From: a virus
Length of the DNA: 30,222 nucleotides
Reading direction: 5' to 3' (one strand)
IMG/VR virus record: IMGVR_UViG_3300032282_005105
Span: 1 to 30,222 of that record
The notes beneath the pieces were generated by a model that saw only the letters and a list, made by a program, of their open reading frames with translations, ran no database searches and was not told the DNA's origin. This document shows positions 2,141-30,085 of the stretch, piece after piece. How positions within the stretch are numbered: the stretch's first letter is position 1; each line of letters opens with the position of its first letter. The position numbers and the translations under genes are program-made.

Positions 2141-2527
2141 ATGACTCGTAAGAAAAAAGAAACACGAGTTACGGATAACAAAATTGAAAAAACGGTTTCG
2201 AATATATTAACAAGACTAAATTTACCATTTGAACAACAAGTATCGGTGGATAAATATACTGTTGACTTTTTGGTAGATAATAAGTATATTGTTGAATGTT
2301 ACGGTGACTTTTGGCACTGTAACCCACAGCAATATACTTCGTCGTATTTTAATCGTGGTAAAAAGAAAACCGCAGAAGAAATATGGCAACGGGACACAGA
2401 AAGAAAAAAGAAGTTTGAGCAATTGGGTTATAAATTTCTATGTTTGTGGGAAGATGACATTAGAAACAATCCAAAGATTGTGCAGTCAAAAATAAAAAAA
2501 CATATAAAATTGGATGGTAGGTTATGA
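2141..2527 (+). CDS. Vsr-like endonuclease, possible free-standing homing endonuclease
   Basis: A basic 128-residue protein with a Vsr/PD-(D/E)XK-like core: VDFLVDN with Asp42, then YIVECYGDFWHC (residues 49-60), then WQRDTERKKKFEQLGYKFL and LWEDDIR (102-108). The GDFWH and GYK-LWE-D pattern is known from very-short-patch-repair nucleases and from phage Vsr-like homing endonucleases of the I-Bth0305I type. It should nick or cut DNA. It is a stand-alone gene squeezed between the oxygenase and the APS-kinase gene, overlapping the latter by four bases, which fits a mobile intruder. A repair role remains possible. A promoter-like sequence lies within it at 2262-2290. Confidence 0.72.
   Translation: MTRKKKETRVTDNKIEKTVSNILTRLNLPFEQQVSVDKYTVDFLVDNKYIVECYGDFWHCNPQQYTSSYFNRGKKKTAEEIWQRDTERKKKFEQLGYKFLCLWEDDIRNNPKIVQSKIKKHIKLDGRL
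2262..2290 (+). promoter_or_regulatory. Possible promoter inside Vsr-like gene
   Basis: TTGACT, a 17-base spacer, then TATATT. It has the same layout as the other promoter copies in this window but lies early in a coding region, about 230 bases before the APS-kinase start, so chance is a real alternative. Confidence 0.4.
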
Positions 2528-3330
2528 GAATTTTACTATTTGGATTACCTGGTTCTGGAAAGACTACATTGGCTGAAAAGCTGGTAAATTTACTTCCTGA
2601 CGCCGGGCATTTGAACGCCGACGCGATTCGCAAAGCATTCGACGATTGGGATTTCAGTCCAGCAGGTAGAGCAAGACAAGCGCTTCGTATGAGAACAATG
2701 TCGGATAATCTACTACAAGAACATACAGTGAAGCATGTCGTTGCAGACTTTGTTGCTCCAACCCGTGAACTTCGGGCAATCTACGAAGCAGACTTTTCCA
2801 TTTGGATGGACACGATTGCCGAGGGGCGTTTCGAAGATACCAATAAAGCATGGCAAGTACCAAAAGAGGACGAATACAACATTCGTATTACAGAATTTAA
2901 TTCAGATGTGGAGGCGGAACGGTTATGCAATTTAATTCAAAAGCATCAACAAAGAAAAAACACAGAGGTGAACATGCAGTTTAACCCCAAAGCACCCACT
3001 GGACTTATGGTGGGAAGATATCAACCCTGGCACAAAGGTCATCGTGCTCTATTTGAAAAGATTTTGTCTATTGCCGGACAAGTATGTATCGGCGTTCGTG
3101 ATACTCACGGAACAACCGAAAAAGACCCATTGCCAATCGAAGATGTTATTTCTAGAATCCACGAAGATTTAGAACAAGATTACGCAGGTAAGTATACCAT
3201 TTGGCAATTGCCAAATATTTCTGGTGTATATTATGGTCGTGATGTTGGGTATAAAGTCGAACAAATTAAATTGGATGATGAAATTGAATCAATTAGTGCA
3301 ACCCAAATTCGTAAGGAACTCGGAATATGA
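2524..3330 (+). CDS. Adenylylsulfate kinase-like / HxGH nucleotidyltransferase fusion
   Basis: Two domains in 268 residues. Residues 1-145 follow APS kinase (CysC): P-loop GLPGSGKTT (7-15), NADAIRKAF in place of the usual DGDNVR, DFSPAGR in place of GFS..DR, and FVAPTRELR in place of FISPFR. APS kinase makes PAPS, the sulfate donor for sulfotransferases, from APS and ATP. Residues 151-268 are a small cytidylyltransferase-like domain with GRYQPWHKGH (HxGH at 170-173) and ISATQIR (257-263), the signatures of adenylyl/cytidylyl transfer. The order kinase then HxGH domain echoes eukaryotic PAPS synthetase, but the second domain is much shorter than ATP sulfurylase. ATG 2974 has its own AGAGGTG site, so the second domain might also be made alone. 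Confidence 0.78.
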   Translation: MRILLFGLPGSGKTTLAEKLVNLLPDAGHLNADAIRKAFDDWDFSPAGRARQALRMRTMSDNLLQEHTVKHVVADFVAPTRELRAIYEADFSIWMDTIAEGRFEDTNKAWQVPKEDEYNIRITEFNSDVEAERLCNLIQKHQQRKNTEVNMQFNPKAPTGLMVGRYQPWHKGHRALFEKILSIAGQVCIGVRDTHGTTEKDPLPIEDVISRIHEDLEQDYAGKYTIWQLPNISGVYYGRDVGYKVEQIKLDDEIESISATQIRKELGI

Positions 3331-3983
3331 TTATAAATGATACGAACGGTAACCAGTGGTGCTATGTAAAAATACCACGAACTGGTACGAAAGAATATAC
3401 CAGTTTATTTGATGAATCATTTGCAAATGAATTAAAAAATAACAAATTTTATCCGCAAGGACACGCACCGTATAGTGCATTGTCAACTGTTAACGATAGT
3501 TCTGTTAAATATTTTACCGTAGTCAGAAATCCTGTTGATAGATTTATTTCTTCGTTACGTTATATGTTTGAACGTAAAGCAACGGATTCTAGAATTTCTT
3601 TCGATATTCCAAACGATACAATTCATAATATGGTGAGTTTTTTCTACGAAAATTTTGATAGAAATTGCCAACCAAAAGGAAAAACATTAGCAGACATATT
3701 CACTGCAAATAATGAATGGTTCATTGGTGCATTTTTTAAAACACAAACCTTTTGGGCAAGTGACGCATCCATCACAGTGTTTAAATACGAAAACATAACA
3801 GAATTCAATGATTGGTTAACAAATAATTTTACATATGATATCAGTAAACTGCAAACATTAGATTTAATAGAAACCGATATGTTAACGCATTTGGATTTTT
3901 CAGACCCAGAGTTTGTTCAGTTGGTAGAACATTTGTTCTATGAAGATTTTACCACATTCAATTATCCATTAAGTAACTCATAA
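3327..3983 (+). CDS. Sulfotransferase family protein
   Basis: 218 residues. KIPRTGTKEY near residue 15 matches the 5'-phosphosulfate loop of PAPS-dependent sulfotransferases (usually KxPKTGTTS). VVRNPVDRFISSLRYMF near residue 65 matches the 3'-phosphate-binding segment. It should move sulfate from PAPS to a hydroxyl of a sugar or other acceptor; the acceptor is unknown. No signal peptide or membrane segment is evident, so it probably acts in the cytoplasm. It starts at an ATGA overlap with the APS-kinase-like gene, a direct hint that donor synthesis and use are coupled. Confidence 0.75.
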   Translation: MIINDTNGNQWCYVKIPRTGTKEYTSLFDESFANELKNNKFYPQGHAPYSALSTVNDSSVKYFTVVRNPVDRFISSLRYMFERKATDSRISFDIPNDTIHNMVSFFYENFDRNCQPKGKTLADIFTANNEWFIGAFFKTQTFWASDASITVFKYENITEFNDWLTNNFTYDISKLQTLDLIETDMLTHLDFSDPEFVQLVEHLFYEDFTTFNYPLSNS

Positions 3984-3984
3984 T

Positions 3985-4200
3985 ATGATTCATCCTAAGA
4001 GACATATTGCAAAGGCTATTAGTTGGCGTATCGTGGGTAGTATAGATACGATGGTCGTTGCTGGTTTATTAACTGGTAATTGGAAACTTGGCTTATCTAT
4101 TGGTGGTGTGGAAGTTATTACTAAAATGATATTATATTACTTCCATGAACGATTCTGGTACAACTATATCAAGTTCGGAGTTGACAAAGACGCCGATTGA
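3985..4200 (+). CDS. DUF2061 family small membrane protein
   Basis: 71 residues. The pattern AISWRIVGSIDTMVVAG, then ITKMILYYFHERFW, is the DUF2061 signature (Trp-Arg near the start, tyrosine-rich helix ending HERxW). Two hydrophobic helices are predicted by eye, at about residues 17-30 and 37-53, so it is probably in the inner membrane. Its function is unknown. From memory, DUF2061 genes often sit beside sulfate-activation genes (cysC, cysD, cysN) in bacteria, so its position after an APS-kinase-like gene and a sulfotransferase gene looks meaningful. The gp43 promoter lies in its last codons. Confidence 0.82.
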   Translation: MIHPKRHIAKAISWRIVGSIDTMVVAGLLTGNWKLGLSIGGVEVITKMILYYFHERFWYNYIKFGVDKDAD

Positions 4201-4209
4201 GGATATATT
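4181..4209 (+). promoter_or_regulatory. Promoter for gp43 (sigma70-like)
   Basis: TTGACA, 17-base spacer, TATATT followed by TAAAG. It overlaps the 3' end of the DUF2061 gene. Transcription would begin near 4216, leaving a leader of about 20 bases before the gp43 ATG at 4239. That excludes the TTG at 4197 as a start on this transcript. Confidence 0.72.
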
Positions 4210-4238
4210 TAAAGAGACTATCAAGGGAGAACTCTTTA

Positions 4239-6761
4239 ATGTATCAAAATATTTTTATTGAAGATGGTGAGGGTCGTGGTATAGTGCATCTTTGGGATGA
4301 CCAAGAGGGCTATACCACGTTGCCGTTTTCACAGTTTGATTATGCATACAAGGCTGACAGCAATGGGTCTAAGCTGAGTATGACAGGTGTTCGGGTCAGT
4401 AAAACCAAAATGTATAAGTGGGATGACCCAACTTTATTTGAGAGTGACATTCCCCGTGAAACTCGTGTAATTACAGATTTATATTTGGATAGTGACGAAC
4501 CATCTAAGGGTCACAAAATTATTTTCTTTGACATCGAGGTGTCAATGGAAAATGGTATTCCGAATATTGAGAACCCAAACAACGAAGTTACAGCCGTTAC
4601 CCTTTATGATAATGTCACGAAGGAATATACGGTATTGGTACTAGACAAAACAGGGTCTCGACAAAACTACAAGAAGAATGATATTGACACCTACTTCTTC
4701 GATAACGAACTTGATCTACTTTACAAATTCATTGACGTATACGAAGCTATCGGTCCCACTATTATCACGGGATGGAATAGTGATTATTTTGACGTACCCT
4801 ATCTTTACAATCGGTTGAAGCAGCAGTGTGGAAACGGTATTGCAAACCGACTGTCTCCAATTGGAAAGTTGAAGTATTCCAAGTTTCGTAAGAAATGGAT
4901 GATTGCTGGTGTGACCTCTCTTGACTATCTTGATCTATACAAGAAGTTTACTTACGGACAGCAGCAAAACTATCGTCTAGATACTATCGGTCGGATTGAA
5001 GTTGGTATGGGAAAGGTTGAATATGAAGGGTCGCTGGATGATCTTTTTGAGAATGACCTTGACAAGTTTATTGATTATAACGTACAAGACGTACGTATTA
5101 TCGTTGAAATTGACAAGAAGATGAAGTTGATTGAGCTGGTTCGTGGTATTTGTCATGTGGGACACGTACAGTACGAAGATTATTGTTACAGTTCCAAGTT
5201 CCTTGAAGGGACAATCATTACCTATCTTCATCGCAAGGGATTAGTGGTGAGTAATAAACCCGCCGATGGACGGCAGTTGATGAATGACCGTGTGGAAAAT
5301 AATGATGAAGGGTTTTCGGGTGCATATGTTAAACCACCTGTTCCTGGGTTGTACGATTGGATTTATTCACTTGACTTGCAATCTCTGTATCCAAGTATCA
5401 TTATGAGTCTCAACATTAGCCCAGAGACTAAACGTGGGTTTGTGACCAACTGGGATGTTGAGAAGCATCGCAAGGGTGAAATTGATCTCTATCTCCTGCG
5501 TGAGAAAGAAACTGATACTATTGTTCGGTTACCTCGTGAAAACTTTATTAAGTTTATGGAAGCGGCAAATATGTACATCAGTTCAAATGGTGTATTATAT
5601 GATGCCAATAAAATGGGTATTATCCCAGAAGTACTTGACCGCTGGTTCGCGGAACGAGTTGAGTATAAGAACTTGATGAAGAAGTATAAGAACGAAGGTA
5701 ATGCAGAATTGGCGGATTATTACGATCGTCGCCAACATATTCAAAAGATTTTCTTGAACTCGTTGTATGGGGTTCTGGGACTTCCTATCTTCCGATTCTT
5801 TGATATTGATAACGCATTGGCCGTTACGGCAACCGGTCAAGATGTTATTAAGAATAGTGCAGAGTTTGCAAATAATTTGTATAACGACAGACTGAAAGAC
5901 GATAAGGATTATTGTATCTATATTGATACAGATTCATTGTATTTTTCATCCAAAGCACTACTACCAGAAAACGCAGAACCAAAGGACTTTACTATTAAAT
6001 TGGCTCGTGCAGTAGAAAAGAAGTTGAATGATTATTATAATGTAATGTCAAAGGAACTATTCTTCTGTGATAAGCATCGGTTCTATATCAAGGGTGAATC
6101 GGTCGCCAGTAAAGGTGTATGGATTGCAAAGAAACGATATGCTATGAATGCGGTGTATGATTTGGAATCTAATCTTGATGTAGATAATAAAATCAAGATT
6201 AAGGGATTAGATGTGGTAAGGTCAACGTTCCCACCAGCATTCCGTACATTTATGAATGGTGTATTAAAGGATGTACTAGGTGGTATTACGAAAAGTGATA
6301 TGGATAAGAAAGTATTGGCGTTTAGAACGGCACTGGATAATGAAAATTATATCAATGTCGCCAGAAATACATCGGTGAAAAATATTTCCGAATATGAAAA
6401 GGGTGCTGGAAAGCAGCTCGGTGAATTTAAGAAAGGAACACCGGCGCACGTGAAGGCATGTATCACATACAACAGAATGTTACATCACTTCAAGATTCAG
6501 AATAAATATGAAAAAATTTCAGATGGTGAAAAGATTAAGTATGTATATCTTAAAACAAATCCGTGGAACCTTGAAACTATTGCTGTAAAGGGATATAACG
6601 ACCCCAAGGAAATTATAGATATCGCATCACAGTATATTGATTACGAAGCACTGTTTGTTAATGAGTTAAAAACTAAATTGGAAGATTTTTATAGTGCATT
6701 GGGTTGGGGACTTCTTCCCACCGATGTCAATCAAAAAGCAGATGAATTCTTTTCATTCTAA
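4239..6761 (+). CDS. 43: DNA polymerase, T4 gp43-like family B
   Basis: An 840-residue replicative polymerase. Proofreading exonuclease motifs: FFDIEV (Asp98/Glu100), WNSDYFDVPYL (Asp185) and YNVQDV (Asp284). Polymerase motif A is DLQSLYPSI (Asp379), motif B KIFLNSLYGVLG (about 503-514) and motif C YIDTDSLY (Asp563/Asp565). All catalytic acids are present and the frame is intact, with no intein or intron. The C-terminus ADEFFSF is hydrophobic-aromatic, like the sliding-clamp-binding tail of T4 gp43. ATG 4239 with AAGGGAGA at 4223-4230 is chosen over TTG 4197, which has no such site and lies upstream of the likely transcription start. It works with gp45 and gp44/gp62 encoded downstream. Confidence 0.97.
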   Translation: MYQNIFIEDGEGRGIVHLWDDQEGYTTLPFSQFDYAYKADSNGSKLSMTGVRVSKTKMYKWDDPTLFESDIPRETRVITDLYLDSDEPSKGHKIIFFDIEVSMENGIPNIENPNNEVTAVTLYDNVTKEYTVLVLDKTGSRQNYKKNDIDTYFFDNELDLLYKFIDVYEAIGPTIITGWNSDYFDVPYLYNRLKQQCGNGIANRLSPIGKLKYSKFRKKWMIAGVTSLDYLDLYKKFTYGQQQNYRLDTIGRIEVGMGKVEYEGSLDDLFENDLDKFIDYNVQDVRIIVEIDKKMKLIELVRGICHVGHVQYEDYCYSSKFLEGTIITYLHRKGLVVSNKPADGRQLMNDRVENNDEGFSGAYVKPPVPGLYDWIYSLDLQSLYPSIIMSLNISPETKRGFVTNWDVEKHRKGEIDLYLLREKETDTIVRLPRENFIKFMEAANMYISSNGVLYDANKMGIIPEVLDRWFAERVEYKNLMKKYKNEGNAELADYYDRRQHIQKIFLNSLYGVLGLPIFRFFDIDNALAVTATGQDVIKNSAEFANNLYNDRLKDDKDYCIYIDTDSLYFSSKALLPENAEPKDFTIKLARAVEKKLNDYYNVMSKELFFCDKHRFYIKGESVASKGVWIAKKRYAMNAVYDLESNLDVDNKIKIKGLDVVRSTFPPAFRTFMNGVLKDVLGGITKSDMDKKVLAFRTALDNENYINVARNTSVKNISEYEKGAGKQLGEFKKGTPAHVKACITYNRMLHHFKIQNKYEKISDGEKIKYVYLKTNPWNLETIAVKGYNDPKEIIDIASQYIDYEALFVNELKTKLEDFYSALGWGLLPTDVNQKADEFFSF

Positions 6762-15151: not shown

Positions 15152-15979
15152 ATGGAAACAATGTTCGTTGATACATCCCGTGTCTCAGTTAGAGAAATCA
15201 GCAAGGCTGTGGCACGGGATTTTATCGAAAAGCATCATTATACAAAAAAAGCCAGTTCCACACGATATGCCCTAGGGATTTTTTATCGGGAAGATACTGA
15301 ACATATGTTCTTTGCTGGTGAGAACGAACAACTTATTGGATGCATGACATATGGACATCCTGTAAGTAATAGAACCGTTGATAGTATTGTAGATGGTTTG
15401 AAGTTGGATGAAGTATTGGAACTCACTAGATTAGTTATTCTTGACGGATACGGAAAGAATATTGAAAGTTATTCTATTGCACAATCATTTCAGTGGATGC
15501 GAGATAATGACCCACGAGTAAAGGTGTTGGTCAGTTATGCAGATCCAGAACAATCACATACTGGTGGCATTTACCGAGCAACTAACTGGATATATCAAGG
15601 ATGTGGATATTCCAAGTTAATGCCAGATTTCTCACTTCTATTAGAAGAAGGAGGATTGTGGATGCACTCACGAACTGTGGGAGCAAAATTTGGTAACAAG
15701 TCGGTAGAAAATTTGGCAAAACGAATCGGTCGCACCTTCTGGCGAAAGGAAGAAACCGCTAAGCATCGGTATATTTATTTTCTCTGTGATAAGAAAGAAA
15801 AGAAACGGATGATGAAGAACTTAAAAATTCCAGTTATACCGTACAACGATATTAAAGAATATGTACAGTTGATTCAAAAGGTCAATGTAAACAATGGTGT
15901 CGTTGAAAATATTGAAGTTATTCAAGGTGTAGATAATGGGTGGACGCCTCAAAAAGTACAATTGAAGGAGAGTGTATGA
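15152..15979 (+). CDS. Mom-like DNA adenine modification protein (copy 2)
   Basis: 275 residues. FIEKHHYTKKASSTRYALGIF at the start, then LIGCMTYGHPVSN, VLELTRLVI and VLVSYADPEQSHTGGIYRATN (about 125-145), follow the same Mom-family pattern as the gene at 8937. The two differ widely, and this one carries about 80 extra C-terminal residues, so they are divergent paralogues or separate acquisitions. It is expected to modify a DNA base. A GNAT enzyme with another substrate is the main alternative. ATG 15152 follows GAGGA at 15143-15147; ATG 15161 is also possible. Confidence 0.75.
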   Translation: METMFVDTSRVSVREISKAVARDFIEKHHYTKKASSTRYALGIFYREDTEHMFFAGENEQLIGCMTYGHPVSNRTVDSIVDGLKLDEVLELTRLVILDGYGKNIESYSIAQSFQWMRDNDPRVKVLVSYADPEQSHTGGIYRATNWIYQGCGYSKLMPDFSLLLEEGGLWMHSRTVGAKFGNKSVENLAKRIGRTFWRKEETAKHRYIYFLCDKKEKKRMMKNLKIPVIPYNDIKEYVQLIQKVNVNNGVVENIEVIQGVDNGWTPQKVQLKESV

Positions 15980-16722
15980 GAGTAGCTATTGTTTCGACCC
16001 CACGTACGTGTTCAAGTATGTTGGGAACTCTTTTCTCTACAAAGTTTAACTTAACAGATTATTCGGAATTGTTTTCCGAAGGTCCGGTTGTAAAACCTGT
16101 GGAAGAAAAATTACATATGATGACGCACACTGACGATTTTTCTGTAAAGATTACCAGTACTACGTTAACATTTTATAAGGACGTATTCGATTATCAGACG
16201 TTTCCGTGGCACGCATTTGATAGGATTGTGTTAGCCGAACGACTGGACATTGCTCAACAGGCAGCAAGTTGGTTACTATTATCATATTCACAGTCAAATG
16301 GTAATAGTGAACATAACGAATTGGTAAAATTTTTAACGGAAGAATTAAAAACACCGGAAAATATTCCACTTAATAGAAGTTTATTAAAATATATTTTAGA
16401 AACTATTCTATATTATTATGATGTAATTAAACCTCATTTGTTAAAGTCTGGATTGCACGTTAGTGTTGTTGACCATGAGTTGATGCAGAAAACGTCCGTA
16501 GAATATCTACCTGAATTAAATGAACGGTTGGGTATTAATTTTACACAAGAAGATGTTGACAAAATATCAAATCCAACGTATATTGATTATACGCCCTTCA
16601 TAGAAGCCCACAAACTTCGTGATGTAATAGAAGAAATTAAACAAGAGTTAACTAATGCCACCGAAGAAGAAACAAGTACAGACGAAGGAAACGAACCAGT
16701 CGAAAACGAAGGGACTGTTTGA
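15976..16722 (+). CDS. Stf0-like sulfotransferase (putative)
   Basis: 248 residues. VAIVSTPRTCSSMLGTLF at the start resembles the PAPS-binding loop of Stf0-type sulfotransferases (STPRTGSTLL). Near residue 90, IVLAERLDIAQQAASWLLL resembles the R-x-D-x-x-x-Q-A-x-S-W segment of that family. It may transfer sulfate from PAPS and is a second likely PAPS user besides the protein at 3327. Cys-Ser replacing Gly-Ser in the loop weakens the case. The acidic tail (EETSTDEGNEPVENEG) overlaps the start of gp62. The ATG at 15976 has AAGGAGAG at 15965-15972. Confidence 0.58.
   Translation: MRVAIVSTPRTCSSMLGTLFSTKFNLTDYSELFSEGPVVKPVEEKLHMMTHTDDFSVKITSTTLTFYKDVFDYQTFPWHAFDRIVLAERLDIAQQAASWLLLSYSQSNGNSEHNELVKFLTEELKTPENIPLNRSLLKYILETILYYYDVIKPHLLKSGLHVSVVDHELMQKTSVEYLPELNERLGINFTQEDVDKISNPTYIDYTPFIEAHKLRDVIEEIKQELTNATEEETSTDEGNEPVENEGTV
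16556..16584 (+). promoter_or_regulatory. Promoter for gp62, inside the upstream gene
   Basis: TTGACA, 17-base spacer, TATATT. It lies inside the sulfotransferase-like gene, about 70 bases before the gp62 start, and would let gp62 be made independently of the long upstream transcript. Confidence 0.62.
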
Positions 16723-20836: not shown

Positions 20837-21175
20837 ATGAAGTACATCATTGAAATGACGCCAGTTGGTTCCGCTACAACCGCTGACACCGCGATCAACC
20901 TCGGTCGTCCTGTATTGATTACCACTGCACATCGTGGTGTGTTCTTTGGATACTCGCATGATACGAGTGGGGAGACGGTGAAACTGTCTCGCGCCCGTCT
21001 CTGTGTCTACTGGTCCGAGGATTGCAAGGGCTTCACGGGTCTGGCGTCTACTGGTCCCACGGCAAACTGCCGTATTGGTGAACCCGCTGACATTGAACTC
21101 CGCAATGTCACCTCGGTAACGGAAGTGACGGCAGTTGCCGTTACACAGTGGGAAGCTGGTCACTGGTCGAAGTAA
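20837..21175 (+). CDS. DUF6948-like phage protein
   Basis: 112 residues. GRPVLITTAHRGVFFGYSHD, then TVKLSRARLCVYWSEDCKGF and GLASTGPTANCRIG, followed by ELRNVTSVTEVTAVAVTQWE, fit a common small phage family that I remember as DUF6948. Function unknown. It has its own strong promoter and ribosome-binding site (AAGGAGT, 20823-20829) and is followed by a strong hairpin, so it is a single-gene transcription unit and may be highly expressed. It is richer in GC than its neighbours. Confidence 0.68.
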   Translation: MKYIIEMTPVGSATTADTAINLGRPVLITTAHRGVFFGYSHDTSGETVKLSRARLCVYWSEDCKGFTGLASTGPTANCRIGEPADIELRNVTSVTEVTAVAVTQWEAGHWSK

Positions 21176-21186
21176 TGGCACCAATG

Positions 21187-21228
21187 TAACGGGGTGGCGT
21201 ACGAGTATATTCTACGCCACCCCCGTTA
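21187..21228 (+). terminator. Strong hairpin, probable terminator
   Basis: TAACGGGGTGGCGTA (21187-21201) pairs with the complementary strand at 21213-21228 with one bulged C: a 15-bp stem and an 11-base loop. It lies 11 bases after the stop at 21175. The tail, TGTTATATCCTT, is only modestly T-rich, so it may end transcription or protect the 3' end of the transcript. Confidence 0.7.
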
Positions 21229-21246
21229 TGTTATATCCTTATAAGA

Positions 21247-21279
21247 GACATCCTATGAACATTCCTGATTGGACGAATA
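21247..21279 (+). repeat. Direct repeat, copy A (translation-start region)
   Basis: 33 bases covering the start codon and first codons of the Gly/Tyr-rich gene. It matches copy B at 21519-21551 at 31 of 33 positions; the first 22 bases are identical. Confidence 0.85.
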
Positions 21280-21530
21280 CTAACACTGGCTACGGCGACG
21301 GCTACGGCGACGGCTACGGCGACGGCTCCGGCCTCGGCTACGGCAATGGCGGCGGCAGCGACGAGGGCATCGGCTACGGCTTCGGCTACGGCGTCGGCTC
21401 CGGTTACGGTGACGGCGGCGGCCTCGGCTACGGCTACGGCTACGGCTACGGTGACGGCGCCGGCGGCTCCGGCCTCAGCTACGGCTACAGCAATGGCTAC
21501 GGCGACGGCTTCGCCGAGGACATCCTATGA
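21255..21530 (+). CDS. Gly/Tyr-rich low-complexity repeat protein
   Basis: 91 residues. After MNIPDWTNTNT the sequence is almost entirely Gly, Tyr, Asp and Ser in GYGDG-type repeats, beginning with three exact copies of a 12-base unit (GGCTACGGCGAC) at 21288-21323. The body is very GC-rich against an AT-rich genome. Glycine-rich repeats of this sort occur in phage virion or tail-associated proteins and in phase-separating proteins; no function is assigned. The alternative frame is also open (Ala/Thr-rich), as expected for such repeats. GAGA a few bases before the ATG is a weak site. The stop overlaps the next start. Confidence 0.68.
   Translation: MNIPDWTNTNTGYGDGYGDGYGDGSGLGYGNGGGSDEGIGYGFGYGVGSGYGDGGGLGYGYGYGYGDGAGGSGLSYGYSNGYGDGFAEDIL
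21288..21510 (+). repeat. GC-rich imperfect tandem repeat
   Basis: Degenerate GGCTACGG/GGCGACGG hexamer and 12-mer units make up the body of the Gly/Tyr-rich gene. The block could expand or contract by slippage. Its base composition contrasts sharply with its surroundings. Confidence 0.8.
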
Positions 21531-24180: not shown

Positions 24181-24963
24181 ATGGCCGAACCTACATCATC
24201 ACAACCGTCCGCATCTATAAAAAATATACAGACTTCTGGTGTCACGCGTATCGCAGCAAATCAAGAGTTTCAATTCACTTACGCAACAACAGAACTTCGT
24301 TCTGGTGGTGTTGGCCCCAGCGAACTTGTTAATATGATTGACGATCACTTGAATATGAAGTTTGATCCTCAAGCACAACGTGGTCGGGAAGATGCTACCG
24401 CCAAAAAAGGTAATCGGGTATTTGCCGAAGATGTCGGTACACCAATTTACGATTATTTGGATACAATTTATTGGCGTAGAATTGTTGAGTGGGTAGAATA
24501 TCGTGACGCACCAATCAGAGCAATGGCACGAGAAGCTTTGGCTGCGGCACAAGCAACCGCTGCAGCAGCGGCCGCTGCAGCACAGACCGCACAGGCGGCA
24601 TTGAATCGAGCTATGACACCGGGACCACCGGGACCGCCAGGACCAGCAGGGGCTACTGGTGCAACTGGCGCAGCGGGTCACACCGACACTTATGTTGCAT
24701 CACACGCAGATACCACACACGCGGACACAACTCACACAGATACACCACATTCAGATACAACTCACACAGACGCATCACACTCGGATACTGCTGGACACGA
24801 CGATACATACGTACCACAACATACCGATACACCACATTCGGATATACCACACTTCGATACCGAAATAGTTCCTCATACCGACATGTATACTCCGCATAGT
24901 GATTTTGGCGGAGGAGGAGGTGGCGGAGGAGGTGGTGGTACTAATAGTGAAACATTTTTCTAA
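24181..24963 (+). CDS. Collagen-like protein with His-Asp repeats, probable virion/tail fibre protein
   Basis: 260 residues in four parts. Residues 1-120 are a globular head with no recognised family. About 121-145 is an alanine-rich helix. About 147-166 is a short collagen-like run of Gly-X-Y triplets (GPPGPPGPAGATGATGAAG), which favours trimers. About 167-241 is a striking repeat of HTDT/HSDT/HADT units. A Gly stretch and TNSETFF end it. Trimeric, collagen-containing proteins in phages are usually tail fibres or baseplate parts. The His-x-Asp spacing could bind metal ions in a trimer. Placement just before glycosyltransferases is suggestive. AAGAGAA precedes the ATG. Confidence 0.75.
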   Translation: MAEPTSSQPSASIKNIQTSGVTRIAANQEFQFTYATTELRSGGVGPSELVNMIDDHLNMKFDPQAQRGREDATAKKGNRVFAEDVGTPIYDYLDTIYWRRIVEWVEYRDAPIRAMAREALAAAQATAAAAAAAAQTAQAALNRAMTPGPPGPPGPAGATGATGAAGHTDTYVASHADTTHADTTHTDTPHSDTTHTDASHSDTAGHDDTYVPQHTDTPHSDIPHFDTEIVPHTDMYTPHSDFGGGGGGGGGGGTNSETFF

Positions 24964-24979: not shown

Positions 24980-26380
24980 ATGAAAGCAGGTTATATACCA
25001 AAAGATAAACGAAAGAAAATTTTATTCCTATCGGATGACATACGTGTTACGTCTGGTGTAGGAGTAATGTCACGAGAAATTGTAGAAGGTACTGCACACC
25101 GGTATAATTGGGTGCAGGTCGGCGCCGCGGTATCACATCCAGAGGCCGGTAAAGTAGTTGATTTGTCGGAAGCGGTAAATAATGAACTTGGGATGACTGA
25201 TGCTTCCGTCAAGATATATCCGTACAATGGATACGGTGACAGTCGGTTAATTCGTCAATTGATGGAAATTGAGAAACCCGATGCTATTCTCCATTTCACC
25301 GATCCTCGATATTGGATTTGGTTGTACCAGATTGAACATGAAATTCGGCAGCAGATTCCAATGTTCTTCTATGCAATTTGGGATGACCTTCCATATCCAT
25401 TCTACAACGAAAACTACTATCGTTCCGATGATTGGATTGGATGTATTAGTAAGCAAACCTATAACATCGTCAAACACGTATCACGTAAGGAACCACGAAC
25501 ACCGTGGTCGTTATCATACGTTCCGCACGGCATCAATACCAAAAACTTCCACCCACTACCAGCAGATGATAAGGACATGCTGGAACTACGTGAACGTTTG
25601 TTTGCGGGACAAGATGTTAAGTATGTAGTATTCTACAACAGCCGTAACATTCGTCGTAAGCAGACTTCCGATGTTATGTTAGCATTTAACACCTTCATGA
25701 AGAAGTTATCGGAAGAAGAACGTTCGAAATGTCGCTTACTATTACATACACAGCCTGTAGACGAACACGGCACTGATTTACCAGCGGTTATTCGTGATGT
25801 AATGCCAGATATGGAAAAATATATTATTTTTTCGAATGAGCGAATTGAGGCAAAGCATATTAATATGTTGTATAACATCGCAGACGTTACCATTAACATG
25901 TCCAGTAATGAAGGATTTGGATTAGGTACATGCGAAAGTTTGATGGCAGGAACACCAATCATTGTAAATGTCACAGGTGGATTGCAAGACCAATGCGGAT
26001 TTAAAAATGACGATGGTGAATACCTTGACCCTGAACGTGATTTTACGTATGATTGGGGTAGTAATCACGATGGACGGTTCAAGAATCATGGTGAGTGGGC
26101 ATTTCCATTATTCCCTGTTAGTCGTTCACTTCAAGGATCACCACTCACGCCGTACATCTTTGACGATCGGTGTTCGTGGGAAGATGCGGCAGAGAAAATT
26201 ATGGAACTATATAAGATGACTCGTGAAGAACGTAAACGTAGAGGTGAAGCAGGTCGCCAGTATGCATTGGGACCAGGTCAATTTACGGCAGAACGTATGT
26301 GTGAATTGTTCATCGAACATATGGAAAATGCGTGGGAAAATTGGACCCCACGGGAACGCTTTACTTTGGTGAAGGGATAA
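24980..26380 (+). CDS. Glycosyltransferase, GT4-like (GT-B fold), first copy
   Basis: 466 residues. ILFLSDDIRVTSGVGVMSRE at the start is the N-terminal nucleotide-sugar enzyme pattern. SYVPHGINTKNFHPL and VFYNSRNIRRKQTSDVMLAF are typical of the linker and second domain. NEGFGLGTCESLMAGTPIIV (about 313-332) carries the donor-binding E-x7-E of GT4 enzymes. It transfers a sugar from a nucleotide donor; donor and acceptor are unknown. It has no signal peptide or membrane helices. It begins a cassette that continues to the window end, with one base between it and the next gene. Confidence 0.88.
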   Translation: MKAGYIPKDKRKKILFLSDDIRVTSGVGVMSREIVEGTAHRYNWVQVGAAVSHPEAGKVVDLSEAVNNELGMTDASVKIYPYNGYGDSRLIRQLMEIEKPDAILHFTDPRYWIWLYQIEHEIRQQIPMFFYAIWDDLPYPFYNENYYRSDDWIGCISKQTYNIVKHVSRKEPRTPWSLSYVPHGINTKNFHPLPADDKDMLELRERLFAGQDVKYVVFYNSRNIRRKQTSDVMLAFNTFMKKLSEEERSKCRLLLHTQPVDEHGTDLPAVIRDVMPDMEKYIIFSNERIEAKHINMLYNIADVTINMSSNEGFGLGTCESLMAGTPIIVNVTGGLQDQCGFKNDDGEYLDPERDFTYDWGSNHDGRFKNHGEWAFPLFPVSRSLQGSPLTPYIFDDRCSWEDAAEKIMELYKMTREERKRRGEAGRQYALGPGQFTAERMCELFIEHMENAWENWTPRERFTLVKG

Positions 26381-26381
26381 T

Positions 26382-27689
26382 ATGACAGGAAAACCGTTAT
26401 GTATAGTTCGGGCTCCCTGCCAGACTCGTTCTGGTTATGGTGATATGAGCCGTGACATCATTCGTCACATTATTGAATGGGACAAGTTTGATGTAAAGAT
26501 TCATTCTGTTCCTTGGGGTGATACTCCAATGAATGCATTGGATGAAAGTAATCCAAAAGATAAAATGATTCTCGACAGAATTATTAAGAGTGGACAATTA
26601 TCACAACCAAGTTTGTATGTAACCATTACCATTCCAACGGAATTTGAACCGTTGGGTAAATATAATATTGGTATCACCGCGGGAATTGAAACTACGGTTG
26701 CGTCAGCGCAGTGGGTAGATGCCTGTAATAAGATGGATTTGGTTTTGACTATTTCGGAACATTCAAAGAATGTATTCCATTTTTCAAAGTACACACAGCA
26801 AGACCAGGCAGGTAACAAAACAGGAGAATTAGTTATTACCAAGCCTGTTGAGGTATTGCATAATTGTATTGACAATAATATCTTCAAGAAGTTGGAGTAT
26901 GATGTTGAATTAGAACCTACGATACGTGAAACCTTAGATAGTATTCCAGAAAAATTCTGTTATCTATTTGTTGGACACTGGTTACGTGGTGAATTTGGCG
27001 AGGACCGTAAAAACGTATCACTCCTCGTTAAGATATTCTTGGAAACGTTTAGACAAGTATCTGAAAAAGACAAGCCGGCGTTAATCTTAAAGACAAGTAG
27101 TGCTGGGTTTTCAATCCTCGACCGTGAGGAAATCTTGAAGAAAATTCAACAGATTAAAGATTCTGTTGTATTAGAGGTGGGACAGATGATGCCTAATATT
27201 TATTTATTGCATGGTGAATTGACCGACAAGGAAATGAATTCATTATACAATCACTCCAAGGTCAAGGCACACGTTAGTTTCACTAAGGGTGAAGGATTCG
27301 GTCGCCCACTATTGGAAGCAAGTGTAAGTGGTAAACCAGTCATTGCCTCTGGATGGAGTGGTCAATTAGACTTCTTGGATAAAGATAATTCTGTATTGGT
27401 TGGTGGTGAATTAAAACCCATCCACGAAAGTTCTGTGTGGGATGGTGTGTTGATTCGTGAATCGACCTGGTTCGCACCAGACATGAATCAGTGTGCAAAT
27501 GCGTTATATGCTGTCTTTAAAAACTATTCTAGTTTTAAAAAGAAGGCTAATATATTAGCAAAGGAAAATACCAAGAAGTTCTCATATCAAACTATTTTTA
27601 ACAGAACAGTTGAACTGTTAGACAAGTATGTTCCACAATTTTCTGTTGAAACTAAATTGGTTCTTCCCACATTAAAGAAGATTAAATAA
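26382..27689 (+). CDS. Glycosyltransferase, GT4-like (GT-B fold), second copy
   Basis: 435 residues. PCQTRSGYGDMSRDIIRHI at the start, VEVLHNCIDNNIFKKL in the middle and GEGFGRPLLEASVSGKPVIA (about 303-322) mark a retaining GT-B enzyme with the E-x7-E donor site. It differs clearly from the first copy, so the two probably add successive or different sugars. No membrane anchor is seen. The stop overlaps the start of the following small gene by one base. Confidence 0.88.
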   Translation: MTGKPLCIVRAPCQTRSGYGDMSRDIIRHIIEWDKFDVKIHSVPWGDTPMNALDESNPKDKMILDRIIKSGQLSQPSLYVTITIPTEFEPLGKYNIGITAGIETTVASAQWVDACNKMDLVLTISEHSKNVFHFSKYTQQDQAGNKTGELVITKPVEVLHNCIDNNIFKKLEYDVELEPTIRETLDSIPEKFCYLFVGHWLRGEFGEDRKNVSLLVKIFLETFRQVSEKDKPALILKTSSAGFSILDREEILKKIQQIKDSVVLEVGQMMPNIYLLHGELTDKEMNSLYNHSKVKAHVSFTKGEGFGRPLLEASVSGKPVIASGWSGQLDFLDKDNSVLVGGELKPIHESSVWDGVLIRESTWFAPDMNQCANALYAVFKNYSSFKKKANILAKENTKKFSYQTIFNRTVELLDKYVPQFSVETKLVLPTLKKIK

Positions 27690-28072
27690 TGGCAATAGAA
27701 GAGTATAAAGGTACGTTGGGTATTCGTACCTTCGTTTCTCGAAAAGATTTAACTACTGGCAAAGTGGTGCAGTTTACTTACGATAACGAGCAAAAATATG
27801 CACTCGTACTTAATCCCAATTGGGAAGGTAAAATGCACGCTTTGTCATTAGGTTCTCTGACCCCAGAAAAACTTGGTCAAATATTTAAATTGATTGACGG
27901 AGAAACAGATACTCAAATAATTTATGACCGTTTCAAAAACTCAAATTTCGTTGGTGACAGACCCTATCGAACCTATTTATTAACAAAGATATCTACGTTA
28001 CGTGAAGTATTCATTAAGAAAACTGTGTTAAAACCAGAAGAAAACGTAACGGAGAATATGTATGGGGAATGA
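27689..28072 (+). CDS. Conserved phage protein, unknown
   Basis: 127 residues. VQFTYDNEQKYALVLNPNWE, then GKMHALSLGSLTPEKL, looks like a small phage family present in T4-like genomes (a strand pair with NPNW.GK.H), function unknown to me. The C-terminal 25 residues are basic, then acidic. It sits between glycosyltransferase and epimerase genes but shows no link to sugar metabolism. Confidence 0.62.
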   Translation: MAIEEYKGTLGIRTFVSRKDLTTGKVVQFTYDNEQKYALVLNPNWEGKMHALSLGSLTPEKLGQIFKLIDGETDTQIIYDRFKNSNFVGDRPYRTYLLTKISTLREVFIKKTVLKPEENVTENMYGE

Positions 28073-28214
28073 TGTTATAAAAGAACATCCACCAACAGAA
28101 TTAAAACACGATAGAATAAATTTAAAAAAATATATGCCCGAAAAAGAATGGTGGACCGTTTGGTACTATATCTGTACGGGTAGAAAAGTGACAGTAGCAA
28201 AAGAACAAAACTAA
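28062..28214 (+). CDS. Small hypothetical protein (50 aa)
   Basis: Begins MGNDVIKEHPPTELKHDRIN and contains KEWWTVWYYICTGRK. GGAGAA at 28051-28056 precedes ATG 28062. It overlaps the previous gene by 11 bases and fills the gap up to the epimerase. Basic and aromatic; no family is recognised. Confidence 0.5.
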   Translation: MGNDVIKEHPPTELKHDRINLKKYMPEKEWWTVWYYICTGRKVTVAKEQN

Positions 28215-28232
28215 TACAATAGGAAGGGTTAT

Positions 28233-29252
28233 ATGACAGAAGAAGGTAATGTTAGTAAAAAACCACTGAGCACAGCGGATAAAGTCGCTGTGGTACTCGG
28301 TGGTTGTGGTTTTATAGGACATCATCTTGCACGAAGATTACAGAAAGAAGGATACTGGGTTCGTGTAGCCGACATTAAACTTCCAGAACATTGTGATGTA
28401 AATACATTTGCAGACGATTGTTTCATTGGTGATTTGGCAGATTACAGTACATGTGTAGAAGCATTAAACCTCGGTAGAAGTGATGTAGAAGTATATCAAT
28501 TGGCCGCCGATATGGGTGGAGCGTCATACATTTTTACTGGTGAACATGATGCAAACGTAATGACGAACTCCGCGTTGATTAATTTAAATACATTACGAGC
28601 AATGGTACGTTTCGGTATCAAACGAGTATTCTACTCATCGTCCGCATGCATCTACCCAGAACACAACCAGATGGATCCAGATAATCCAAATTGTGAAGAA
28701 GGTTCCGCATACCCTGCAAATCCCGATTCTGAATACGGATGGGAGAAGTTGTTCAGTGAACGTTTGTATATGTCGTATAAGCGTAACTTCGGTATCGAAC
28801 CACGCATTGCCCGTTTTCATAATGTATATGGTGTGGAAGGGACATGGGAAGGTGGTCGTGAAAAGGCACCCGCTGCGATGTGTAGGAAGATTGCACAAGC
28901 ACCAGAAGGTGGTTCAATTGAAATGTTTGGTGATGGAAAGCAGACTCGTTCATTCCTTTATGTGGACGAGTGTGTAGAAGGTATCTTACGATTAACACAT
29001 TCAGACTTCACTGGTCCTGTTAATATCGGGTCAGAAGAAATGATATCAATTAATGATTTTGCTTATATGATTATGGGAATCGCCGGTAAGCAGTTAACTA
29101 TTAATCACATTCCAGGCCCATTGGGTGTCCGTGGACGTTCCTCTGACAATCGTTTAATTCGACAGGCATTAGGATGGGAACCCAACTCACCGTTAATTGA
29201 TGGTATTCGTAAAACACATCATTGGATTAATGAGCAGGTTAAATCTTTATGA
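28233..29252 (+). CDS. GDP-mannose 3,5-epimerase-like SDR enzyme
   Basis: 339 residues. GGCGFIGHHLA (23-33) is the NAD-binding loop, YSSSACIYPE (134-143) and YGWEK (Tyr168, Lys172) are the catalytic set of extended short-chain dehydrogenases. The stretches ARFHNVYGVEGTWEGGREKA, PAAMCRKIA, GDGKQTRSFLYVDECVEG, GPVNIGSEEMISIND and IPGPLGVRGRSSDNRLI follow GDP-mannose 3,5-epimerase very closely. That enzyme makes GDP-L-galactose (and GDP-L-gulose) from GDP-mannose. The first 15 residues are an unstructured addition. GAAGGG precedes the ATG. It overlaps the GT11-like gene by four bases. Confidence 0.9.
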   Translation: MTEEGNVSKKPLSTADKVAVVLGGCGFIGHHLARRLQKEGYWVRVADIKLPEHCDVNTFADDCFIGDLADYSTCVEALNLGRSDVEVYQLAADMGGASYIFTGEHDANVMTNSALINLNTLRAMVRFGIKRVFYSSSACIYPEHNQMDPDNPNCEEGSAYPANPDSEYGWEKLFSERLYMSYKRNFGIEPRIARFHNVYGVEGTWEGGREKAPAAMCRKIAQAPEGGSIEMFGDGKQTRSFLYVDECVEGILRLTHSDFTGPVNIGSEEMISINDFAYMIMGIAGKQLTINHIPGPLGVRGRSSDNRLIRQALGWEPNSPLIDGIRKTHHWINEQVKSL

Positions 29253-30085
29253 TTACGCATGTAGGGATAGGAAACTCTGGACGATTTGGGAATCAAATGT
29301 TCCAAATGGCTGCACTCGTTGGTATCGCAGAAAAAAATGGATATGATATAAAAATTCCAATAGAAAATACTGGTGATAACTTTGTATTTTATGACTTGGC
29401 AAAGCAACAAGCAGAACCCACGGGTATGGAACTTCGTAGACCGTTCAATATTCCAGACCACTATTTCGCACCGATGGAAGAGATTTCATCTGTTGTCAAG
29501 CAACGATACCAAGAACAATTCTTTCATTTTAATGGTGCTGCATTAGACATTCCAGATAATATTGATATTGCTGGGTTCTTTCAAAGTGAAAAGTATTTCA
29601 AACATGCAGAACAAAACGTCCGTGAAGTATTTACCTTCCGTCCAGAAATTCGACAGCAAGCTGAATTAGAACTGACAAAGGTAAAGGATGATGCACCACG
29701 AGTATCTATCCACGTTCGTCGTGGAGATTATGTGGCAAACTCGGCAAACCATACGGTCACTGGAATGGAATACTATGCGGAGGCTATCAACAAGTTCTTC
29801 TCGAAAGAACCTTATCGGTTTGTAGTATTCTCCGATGATCCAGAATGGTGTAAGGAAATGTTCGAAGGTGGATATATTGTAGATATCAATAACTCATATG
29901 TAGAAATGTGTATGATGAGTATGTGTGACCATCACATCATTGCAAATAGTTCATTTAGTTGGTGGGGAGCTTGGTTAAATCCAAACCCCAAGAAGATTGT
30001 CGCCGCACCGTCACAGTGGTTCGGACCAAACCTTCGTCATAACAGTATTATAGACCTTCTACCAAGTGAGTGGTTTTGGATATGA
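29249..30085 (+). CDS. GT11 alpha-1,2-fucosyltransferase-like glycosyltransferase
   Basis: 278 residues. GNSGRFGNQMFQMAAL (8-23), SIHVRRGDYV (153-162), FVVFSDDPEWCKEMF and NSSFSWWGAWLNPNPKKIVAAPSQWFG near the C-terminus are the four conserved blocks of GT11; the HxRRxD segment binds GDP. The usual donor is GDP-L-fucose, but the neighbouring epimerase would make GDP-L-galactose, a near-identical sugar with one more hydroxyl. Transfer of L-galactose is therefore plausible. No membrane anchor is seen. It is coupled to its neighbours by ATGA overlaps on both sides. Confidence 0.9.
   Translation: MITHVGIGNSGRFGNQMFQMAALVGIAEKNGYDIKIPIENTGDNFVFYDLAKQQAEPTGMELRRPFNIPDHYFAPMEEISSVVKQRYQEQFFHFNGAALDIPDNIDIAGFFQSEKYFKHAEQNVREVFTFRPEIRQQAELELTKVKDDAPRVSIHVRRGDYVANSANHTVTGMEYYAEAINKFFSKEPYRFVVFSDDPEWCKEMFEGGYIVDINNSYVEMCMMSMCDHHIIANSSFSWWGAWLNPNPKKIVAAPSQWFGPNLRHNSIIDLLPSEWFWI

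Follow-up and report, generated by a model that had tools for sequence, protein, structure and literature searches.

A phage kinase-nucleotidyltransferase pair encoded beside sulfotransferases, a probable source of a PAPS-type donor for sulfation

Can a phage carry both the enzymes that activate sulfate and the enzyme that transfers it? The question was raised by a locus in a freshwater virus of bacteria, a tailed phage whose replication genes resemble those of T4. Its 30-kb record (IMGVR_UViG_3300032282_005105, positions 1 to 30,222) is here called the window. An earlier note on this DNA had described three tightly linked genes, encoding an APS-kinase-type kinase fused to an HxGH nucleotidyltransferase domain, a sulfotransferase with PAPS motifs, and a DUF2061 protein. 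The three ORFs (268, 218 and 71 aa, respectively) were indeed found in that order on the + strand, tightly packed between a Vsr-like gene and a family-B DNA polymerase gene, and each had a Pfam score above the curated cut-off. The features discussed below are the following.

2141-2527: Vsr-like gene, 5' flank of the three-gene block
2524..2967, + strand: APS-kinase-type P-loop kinase domain without the usual lid, residues 1-148 (Pfam, profile and fold)
2925..2984, + strand: domain junction, with an apparent remnant of the HxGH-gene start (2925-2951) followed by an apparent GIY-YIG endonuclease 3' tail (2951-2984) (sequence comparison)
2964..2976, + strand: AGAGGTGA, Shine-Dalgarno-like sequence and internal ATG (2974) (sequence)
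2974..3330, + strand: compact HxGH nucleotidyltransferase domain, residues 151-268 (motifs GRYQPWHKGH and GRDVGY...ISATQIR)
3327..3983, + strand: sulfotransferase, Sulfotransfer_2 type (Pfam, 26.7 bits; cut-off, 22)
3985..4200, + strand: DUF2061 small predicted membrane protein (Pfam, 81 bits; cut-off, 23.1)
4197-6761: family-B DNA polymerase, 3' flank of the block
15976..16722, + strand: candidate second sulfotransferase, unconfirmed (Sulfotransfer_1, 14.3 bits, below the cut-off of 22)

The kinase and HxGH domains

PHROG family 10255 spanned the entire 268-aa protein (200 bits), under an annotation that reads only "kinase" and states no link to sulfation. With Pfam, the ORF at 2524-3330 matched APS_kinase at 28.2 bits (cut-off, 21.1); among its relatives, several distant or bacterial ones scored 35 to 54 bits. 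In a PDB search with a 33-member profile of the kinase family, APS kinases were retrieved (2e-19 to 2e-10) ahead of PSTK (6e-7), the metabolite-kinase family that came next. In agreement with this, when the AlphaFold2 model of the fused protein (mean pLDDT, 91) was realigned against the PDB, the 23 best matches were APS kinases or chains containing one (Z, 15.6 to 17.2), and gluconate kinase tied with the lowest of them (Z, 15.6). T4 Pnk had topped the Foldseek search, but with a TM of 0.29, an rmsd of 18 and a forced two-domain alignment; on realignment it was displaced and APS kinases came first. The N-terminal domain is thus an APS-kinase-type kinase, as the note had claimed, and groups with APS kinases instead of polynucleotide kinases.

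In the CysC of Mycobacterium tuberculosis, APS is contacted by Asp480, the likely base; by Arg483 and Arg497, which bind the phosphosulfate; and by Phe492, which stacks on the adenine (PMC4373884). Alignment with a bacterial CysC placed these residues at D33, R36, R49 and F44, respectively. D33, R36 and R49 were present in all 33 kinase sequences, and position 44 was aromatic in every one (F in 30, Y in 3). The phage kinase therefore has in common with CysC (PF01583) the P-loop, the catalytic Asp, both phosphosulfate Arg residues, the adenine-stacking aromatic and the fold (Z, 17). It differs from it in three respects: the Asn three residues after Arg497 is Gln in 26 of the 33 sequences, Ala, Cys or Tyr takes the place of Ser in the ISP motif, and the lid measures 34 residues between conserved prolines, versus 58 in a bacterial CysC. 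As a result of this 24-residue deletion, the catalytic Lys562 of the M. tuberculosis lid and its Arg559 have no counterpart, and the domain is best termed APS-kinase-like, not a canonical CysC. An Arg immediately preceding the F/Y at the lid end, found in 32 of 33 sequences, may, judging from the alignment, replace the missing residues.

For its part, the HxGH domain matched Pfam CTP_transf_like at 22 bits (cut-off, 21). Its best profile match was archaeal NMN adenylyltransferase (7.6e-11), with which it shares the NadM motifs GRFQPFHxGH and ISxTxIR, and the profile search yielded no match to ATP sulfurylase. A separate model of the domain (pLDDT, 90) was matched equally by the PPAT and NMNAT folds (Z, 10 to 10.8); ATP sulfurylase 1v47 was 17th in the Foldseek list (E, 0.012; TM, 0.50), level with other HIGH enzymes. 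Matches in BFVD, all of them weak, were restricted to generic cytidylyltransferases and phage NMN adenylyltransferases. The invariant or nearly invariant residues comprise GR-x-Q...H-x-GH, an Arg, a Pro, YGRDVG and IS-A-T..R. The Sat motifs QxRNPxHxxH and GRDHAG are missing, and GR[FY]QP-x-H-x-GH and GRDVGY are found instead. The note had suggested that the fusion of the domain to the kinase echoes PAPS synthetase, with the domain far too short for a standard ATP sulfurylase: the shortness (∼115 aa) was borne out, whereas no likeness to ATP sulfurylase was detected by sequence, PF01747 (ATP sulfurylase, Sat) giving no match in the window or in 19 related records. The HxGH domain is consequently the only candidate APS source found there.

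The domain is no typical NMN adenylyltransferase either, since it scored 26.6 bits with the NCBIfam equivalog, against a cut-off of 181.2. In the profile alignment, residues 76 to 108 of MJ0541 (∼33 residues), which we take to be the part holding the nicotinamide (NMN) pocket, are reduced to ∼8, so that the phage domain is ∼25 residues shorter than NadM at the expected pocket. It is, then, a compact nucleotidyltransferase of the HIGH superfamily that fits the family definition of neither ATP sulfurylase nor NMNAT. A pocket with no room for NMN would suit a small acceptor such as sulfate.

Scans for the kinase and the HxGH domain recovered 68 viral loci and a few bacterial ones; clustering at 95% identity gave 48 groups, almost all viral. 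In nearly every viral locus, divergent clades included, the two were fused, overlapping or adjacent. The fusion reported in the note is present in ORF 2524-3330 but is not general in this phage group, since close relatives encode the two domains as separate ORFs. In some loci (L004-L008, L012, also L029 and others) a GIY-YIG endonuclease gene sits between them. The junction of the window was compared with L029, in which the endonuclease is present, and with loci in which it is absent (L038, L056 and others). The 27 nt at 2925-2951 correspond to the former start of the HxGH gene, and the next ∼34 nt are identical to the end of the endonuclease gene. Owing to this tail, the fusion is best read as a deletion scar; from the sequence comparison, it looks like the mark of a lost GIY-YIG homing endonuclease whose loss created the in-frame fusion. 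ATG 2974 lies within the endonuclease-derived stretch, and the separate HxGH ORF of relatives begins at the same ATG. The presence of AGAGGTGA ahead of it suggests that this start still permits the HxGH domain to be synthesized by itself. The other fusions (Casjensviridae, phage DLP_6 and many IMG/VR contigs) showed no sign of an endonuclease-loss event.

Sulfotransferases and other genes beside the pair

Relatives of the window repeated the order kinase, HxGH, sulfotransferase, DUF2061 and DNA polymerase, so that the linkage extends beyond this record. The protein encoded at 3327-3983 has in common with the Sulfotransfer_2 family (heparan 2-O-sulfotransferase type) the motifs K-x-P-x-T-x-T and R-x-P-x-x-R-F-x-S: K15, P17, T19 and T21, and R67, P69, R72 and S75, were invariant in 10 relatives. 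This conservation of the putative PAPS loops, together with the Pfam score, agrees with the note's assignment. The protein belongs to a short, highly diverged phage branch, and a PDB profile search with its family reached heparan 2-O-sulfotransferase only at 0.02.

This family was found beside the kinase/HxGH pair as 10 distinct sequences, and another group of neighbors (cluster 21) was Sulfotransfer_2-like (1.3e-4). In the L080-L089 clade, a Sulfotransfer_3 gene (80 bits) lies directly upstream of the kinase, giving the order sulfotransferase, kinase, HxGH, DUF2061. In L073, a weak Sulfotransfer_3 match (17 bits) adjoins a UDP-galactopyranose mutase gene. Two bacterial contigs have a Sulfotransfer_1 gene directly upstream of the pair: one is assigned to a Planctomycetaceae MAG (48.9 bits), and the other, 447 kb long, comes from a different bacterial genome (94 bits). 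Yet another bacterial genome has a kinase that lacks an HxGH partner, and the gene after it matches a sulfotransferase weakly (14.5 bits). Genes of three Pfam sulfotransferase families thus accompany the pair again and again, in contexts unrelated to one another.

The association was also evident in gene density. Within 2.5 kb of the pair (223 kb surveyed) there were 25 sulfotransferase-like ORFs, or 0.11 per kb, versus 5 at 2.5 to 8 kb (381 kb), or 0.013 per kb; counting Pfam-supported families alone, the figures were 11 and 5. A scan for the window's sulfotransferase that was independent of the kinase detected 43 loci, about half of them on contigs where the pair had already been found, an overlap to which shared ancestry contributes. 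Many of the groups come from one freshwater phage lineage, and hence their linkage is not independent. Among 23 records picked mostly for having no sulfotransferase alongside the pair, 8, phage DLP_6 included, had a Pfam sulfotransferase elsewhere. Three complete Casjensviridae genomes with the fused protein contained no sulfotransferase recognizable by the three Pfam families. These genomes, together with a NADAR domain gene (91.6 bits) directly upstream of the fused protein in the Casjensviridae phage Suzuki (L017:5556-5996), are the main contrary evidence.

Two further candidates are less firmly assigned. At 15976 the note had seen a further sulfotransferase, one like Stf0; the reading frame exists, and its identity as a sulfotransferase is unconfirmed at the score given above. 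It was found in only five contigs, of near-identical phages, and did not match the family that we call ST4. ST4 genes, 17 distinct sequences beside the pair, are tentatively sulfotransferases: one gave an Stf0 match at 0.029, there was none in the PDB, and profile comparison lent no support. PAP phosphatase (Inositol_P) was absent from the 18 records searched.

DUF2061 was present in 21 of the 48 kinase/HxGH groups, often immediately beside the pair. The note had called it a neighbor of sulfate-activation genes in bacteria, which rarely held. DUF2061 occurred in 64 of 299 sampled Pseudomonadota-type genomes; among the neighbors scanned there was no enrichment of sulfur genes, and it was next to CysC in a single genome of the 63 DUF2061-bearing ones tested, within a run of sulfite reductase, CysH, CysC and DUF2061. 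That bacterial locus (L250:6736-10231) carries sulfite reductase-like, CysH-like and CysC genes with the DUF2061 match just downstream.

Genes for glycan synthesis are found in the window at 24980-30085 (two group-1 glycosyltransferases, an epimerase and a GT11 family gene), and relatives carry UDP-sugar dehydrogenase, aminotransferase and carbamoyltransferase genes; a glycan is therefore the simplest guess for the acceptor. At L073:5400-7971, a TET-associated-glycosyltransferase-like gene (just under the cut-off), the UDP-galactopyranose mutase gene and the weak sulfotransferase gene stand in a row before the kinase, and a DNA-linked glycan is a possible acceptor at that locus.

The window holds other genes of interest in their own right: a DruA (Druantia) family protein carried by a phage (11881-13317; 82.7 bits), two different Mom-family DNA modification genes in one phage (8931-9521 and 15149-15979; 124 and 160 bits, respectively), a collagen-like GPPGPPG protein with HTDT repeats (24181-24963) and a glycine-rich ORF with a GYGDG repeat (21135-21530).

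A predicted donor pathway and its alternatives

Gene content, family membership and recurrent linkage were observed directly; the enzyme reactions are predicted. The cassette is probably a phage supply of a PAPS-type donor for sulfation. Acting on an adenylyl substrate, most probably APS, the kinase domain would phosphorylate its 3'-OH and so yield PAPS, a step deduced from its family, its fold and the conserved APS-site residues. The neighboring sulfotransferase would then use PAPS to sulfate an acceptor, as its motifs and the nearby glycan genes suggest, most likely a glycan made by the phage glycosyltransferases or present on the host surface. The HxGH domain, found with the kinase in almost every case, would supply the adenylyl substrate, and DUF2061 would be an accessory membrane protein.

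The likeliest HxGH reaction would be the formation of APS from ATP and sulfate, in which case the 268-aa protein would amount to a minimal PAPS synthetase; granted the rest of the explanation, this step could go either way. Like PAPS synthetase (human PAPSS1/2, or the ATP sulfurylase-APS kinase of Aquifex), the phage protein combines APS-kinase-type and HxGH domains in one chain, with the kinase first, as in human PAPSS. It is much smaller (268 aa versus about 520 to 630 aa), its HxGH domain comes from another branch of the superfamily, its kinase has no lid, and its APS formation is a prediction. A bolder proposal, which we offer tentatively and consider rather less than an even bet, is that the HxGH domain arose from the NMN-adenylyltransferase branch and adds to Sat and CysDN a third kind of ATP sulfurylase, one of compact size. 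No complete PAPS synthetase would then be smaller than the 268-aa protein or its two-gene counterpart, and viruses would carry it to power their own sulfation, whether of glycans or of other targets in the virion, the host or DNA.

The donor might be a compound other than PAPS. In the O-methyl phosphoramidate pathway of Campylobacter, the CDP-phosphoramidate kinase is a relative of CysC, and an enzyme named cytidine diphosphoramidate kinase appears in the literature; by analogy, the HxGH domain would make, e.g., CDP- or ADP-phosphoramidate, the kinase would 3'-phosphorylate it, and a transferase with the sulfotransferase fold would use the product. The dissimilarity of the HxGH domain to ATP sulfurylase fits such a route, as do the altered lid of the kinase and its Gln in place of Asn. 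Yet both phosphosulfate-binding Arg residues of CysC are invariant in the phage kinases, and no known phosphoramidate-route gene was seen among the scanned ORFs adjoining the pair, which cover part of the neighbors. We regard this route as unlikely.

A role in NAD+ salvage or repair, in which a mononucleotide-making kinase and an NMN adenylyltransferase would act in NadR-like fashion, perhaps countering an NAD-depleting defense, agrees with the nearest solved relatives of the HxGH domain and with the NADAR gene of phage Suzuki. It is improbable in view of the shortened region of the presumed NMN pocket and of the kinase profile, which finds APS kinases and not NadR-type ribosylnicotinamide kinases (no NadR chain was among its 60 best PDB matches), and it leaves the adjoining sulfotransferases, bacterial ones included, unexplained.

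Alternatively, the kinase could raise PAPS for reduction to cysteine, with the sulfotransferase unrelated to it. Phage cysC genes are already known, are transcribed in lakes and have been interpreted as assimilatory (PMC10914622, PMC8190135). A PP-loop gene lies beside many copies of the pair, but it is QueC-like in the two members scanned and not a PAPS reductase; this, and the recurrence of several sulfotransferase families beside the pair, make an assimilatory role improbable. The PP-loop protein, which bears a C-terminal Cys motif, was found at L028:8781-9344 and in relatives (24 loci, sometimes in two copies). Finally, a CoA synthase-like pair, with a PPAT-type HxGH domain and a 3'-OH kinase acting on dephospho-CoA, would account for the PPAT fold matching as well as NMNAT but is highly improbable, given that the kinase matches APS kinase and that dephospho-CoA kinase was absent from its 50 best structural and 60 best profile matches.

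The supply of a PAPS-type donor for sulfation thus being the preferred reading, the cassette bears on how phage cysC-like genes are understood. The current interpretation of these genes is that they aid sulfur assimilation; a widespread kinase/HxGH family wired to sulfotransferases would serve sulfation instead. We found no description of the kinase/HxGH/sulfotransferase module in the open-license papers searched, and sulfation as a phage modification had little precedent there. If the HxGH domain makes APS, the two domains, ∼260 aa together, would constitute a minimal pathway to activated sulfate of a new kind, with uses in biochemistry and engineering. The finding raises the question of what phages sulfate, and of what effect this may have on adsorption, defense evasion or the virion surface.
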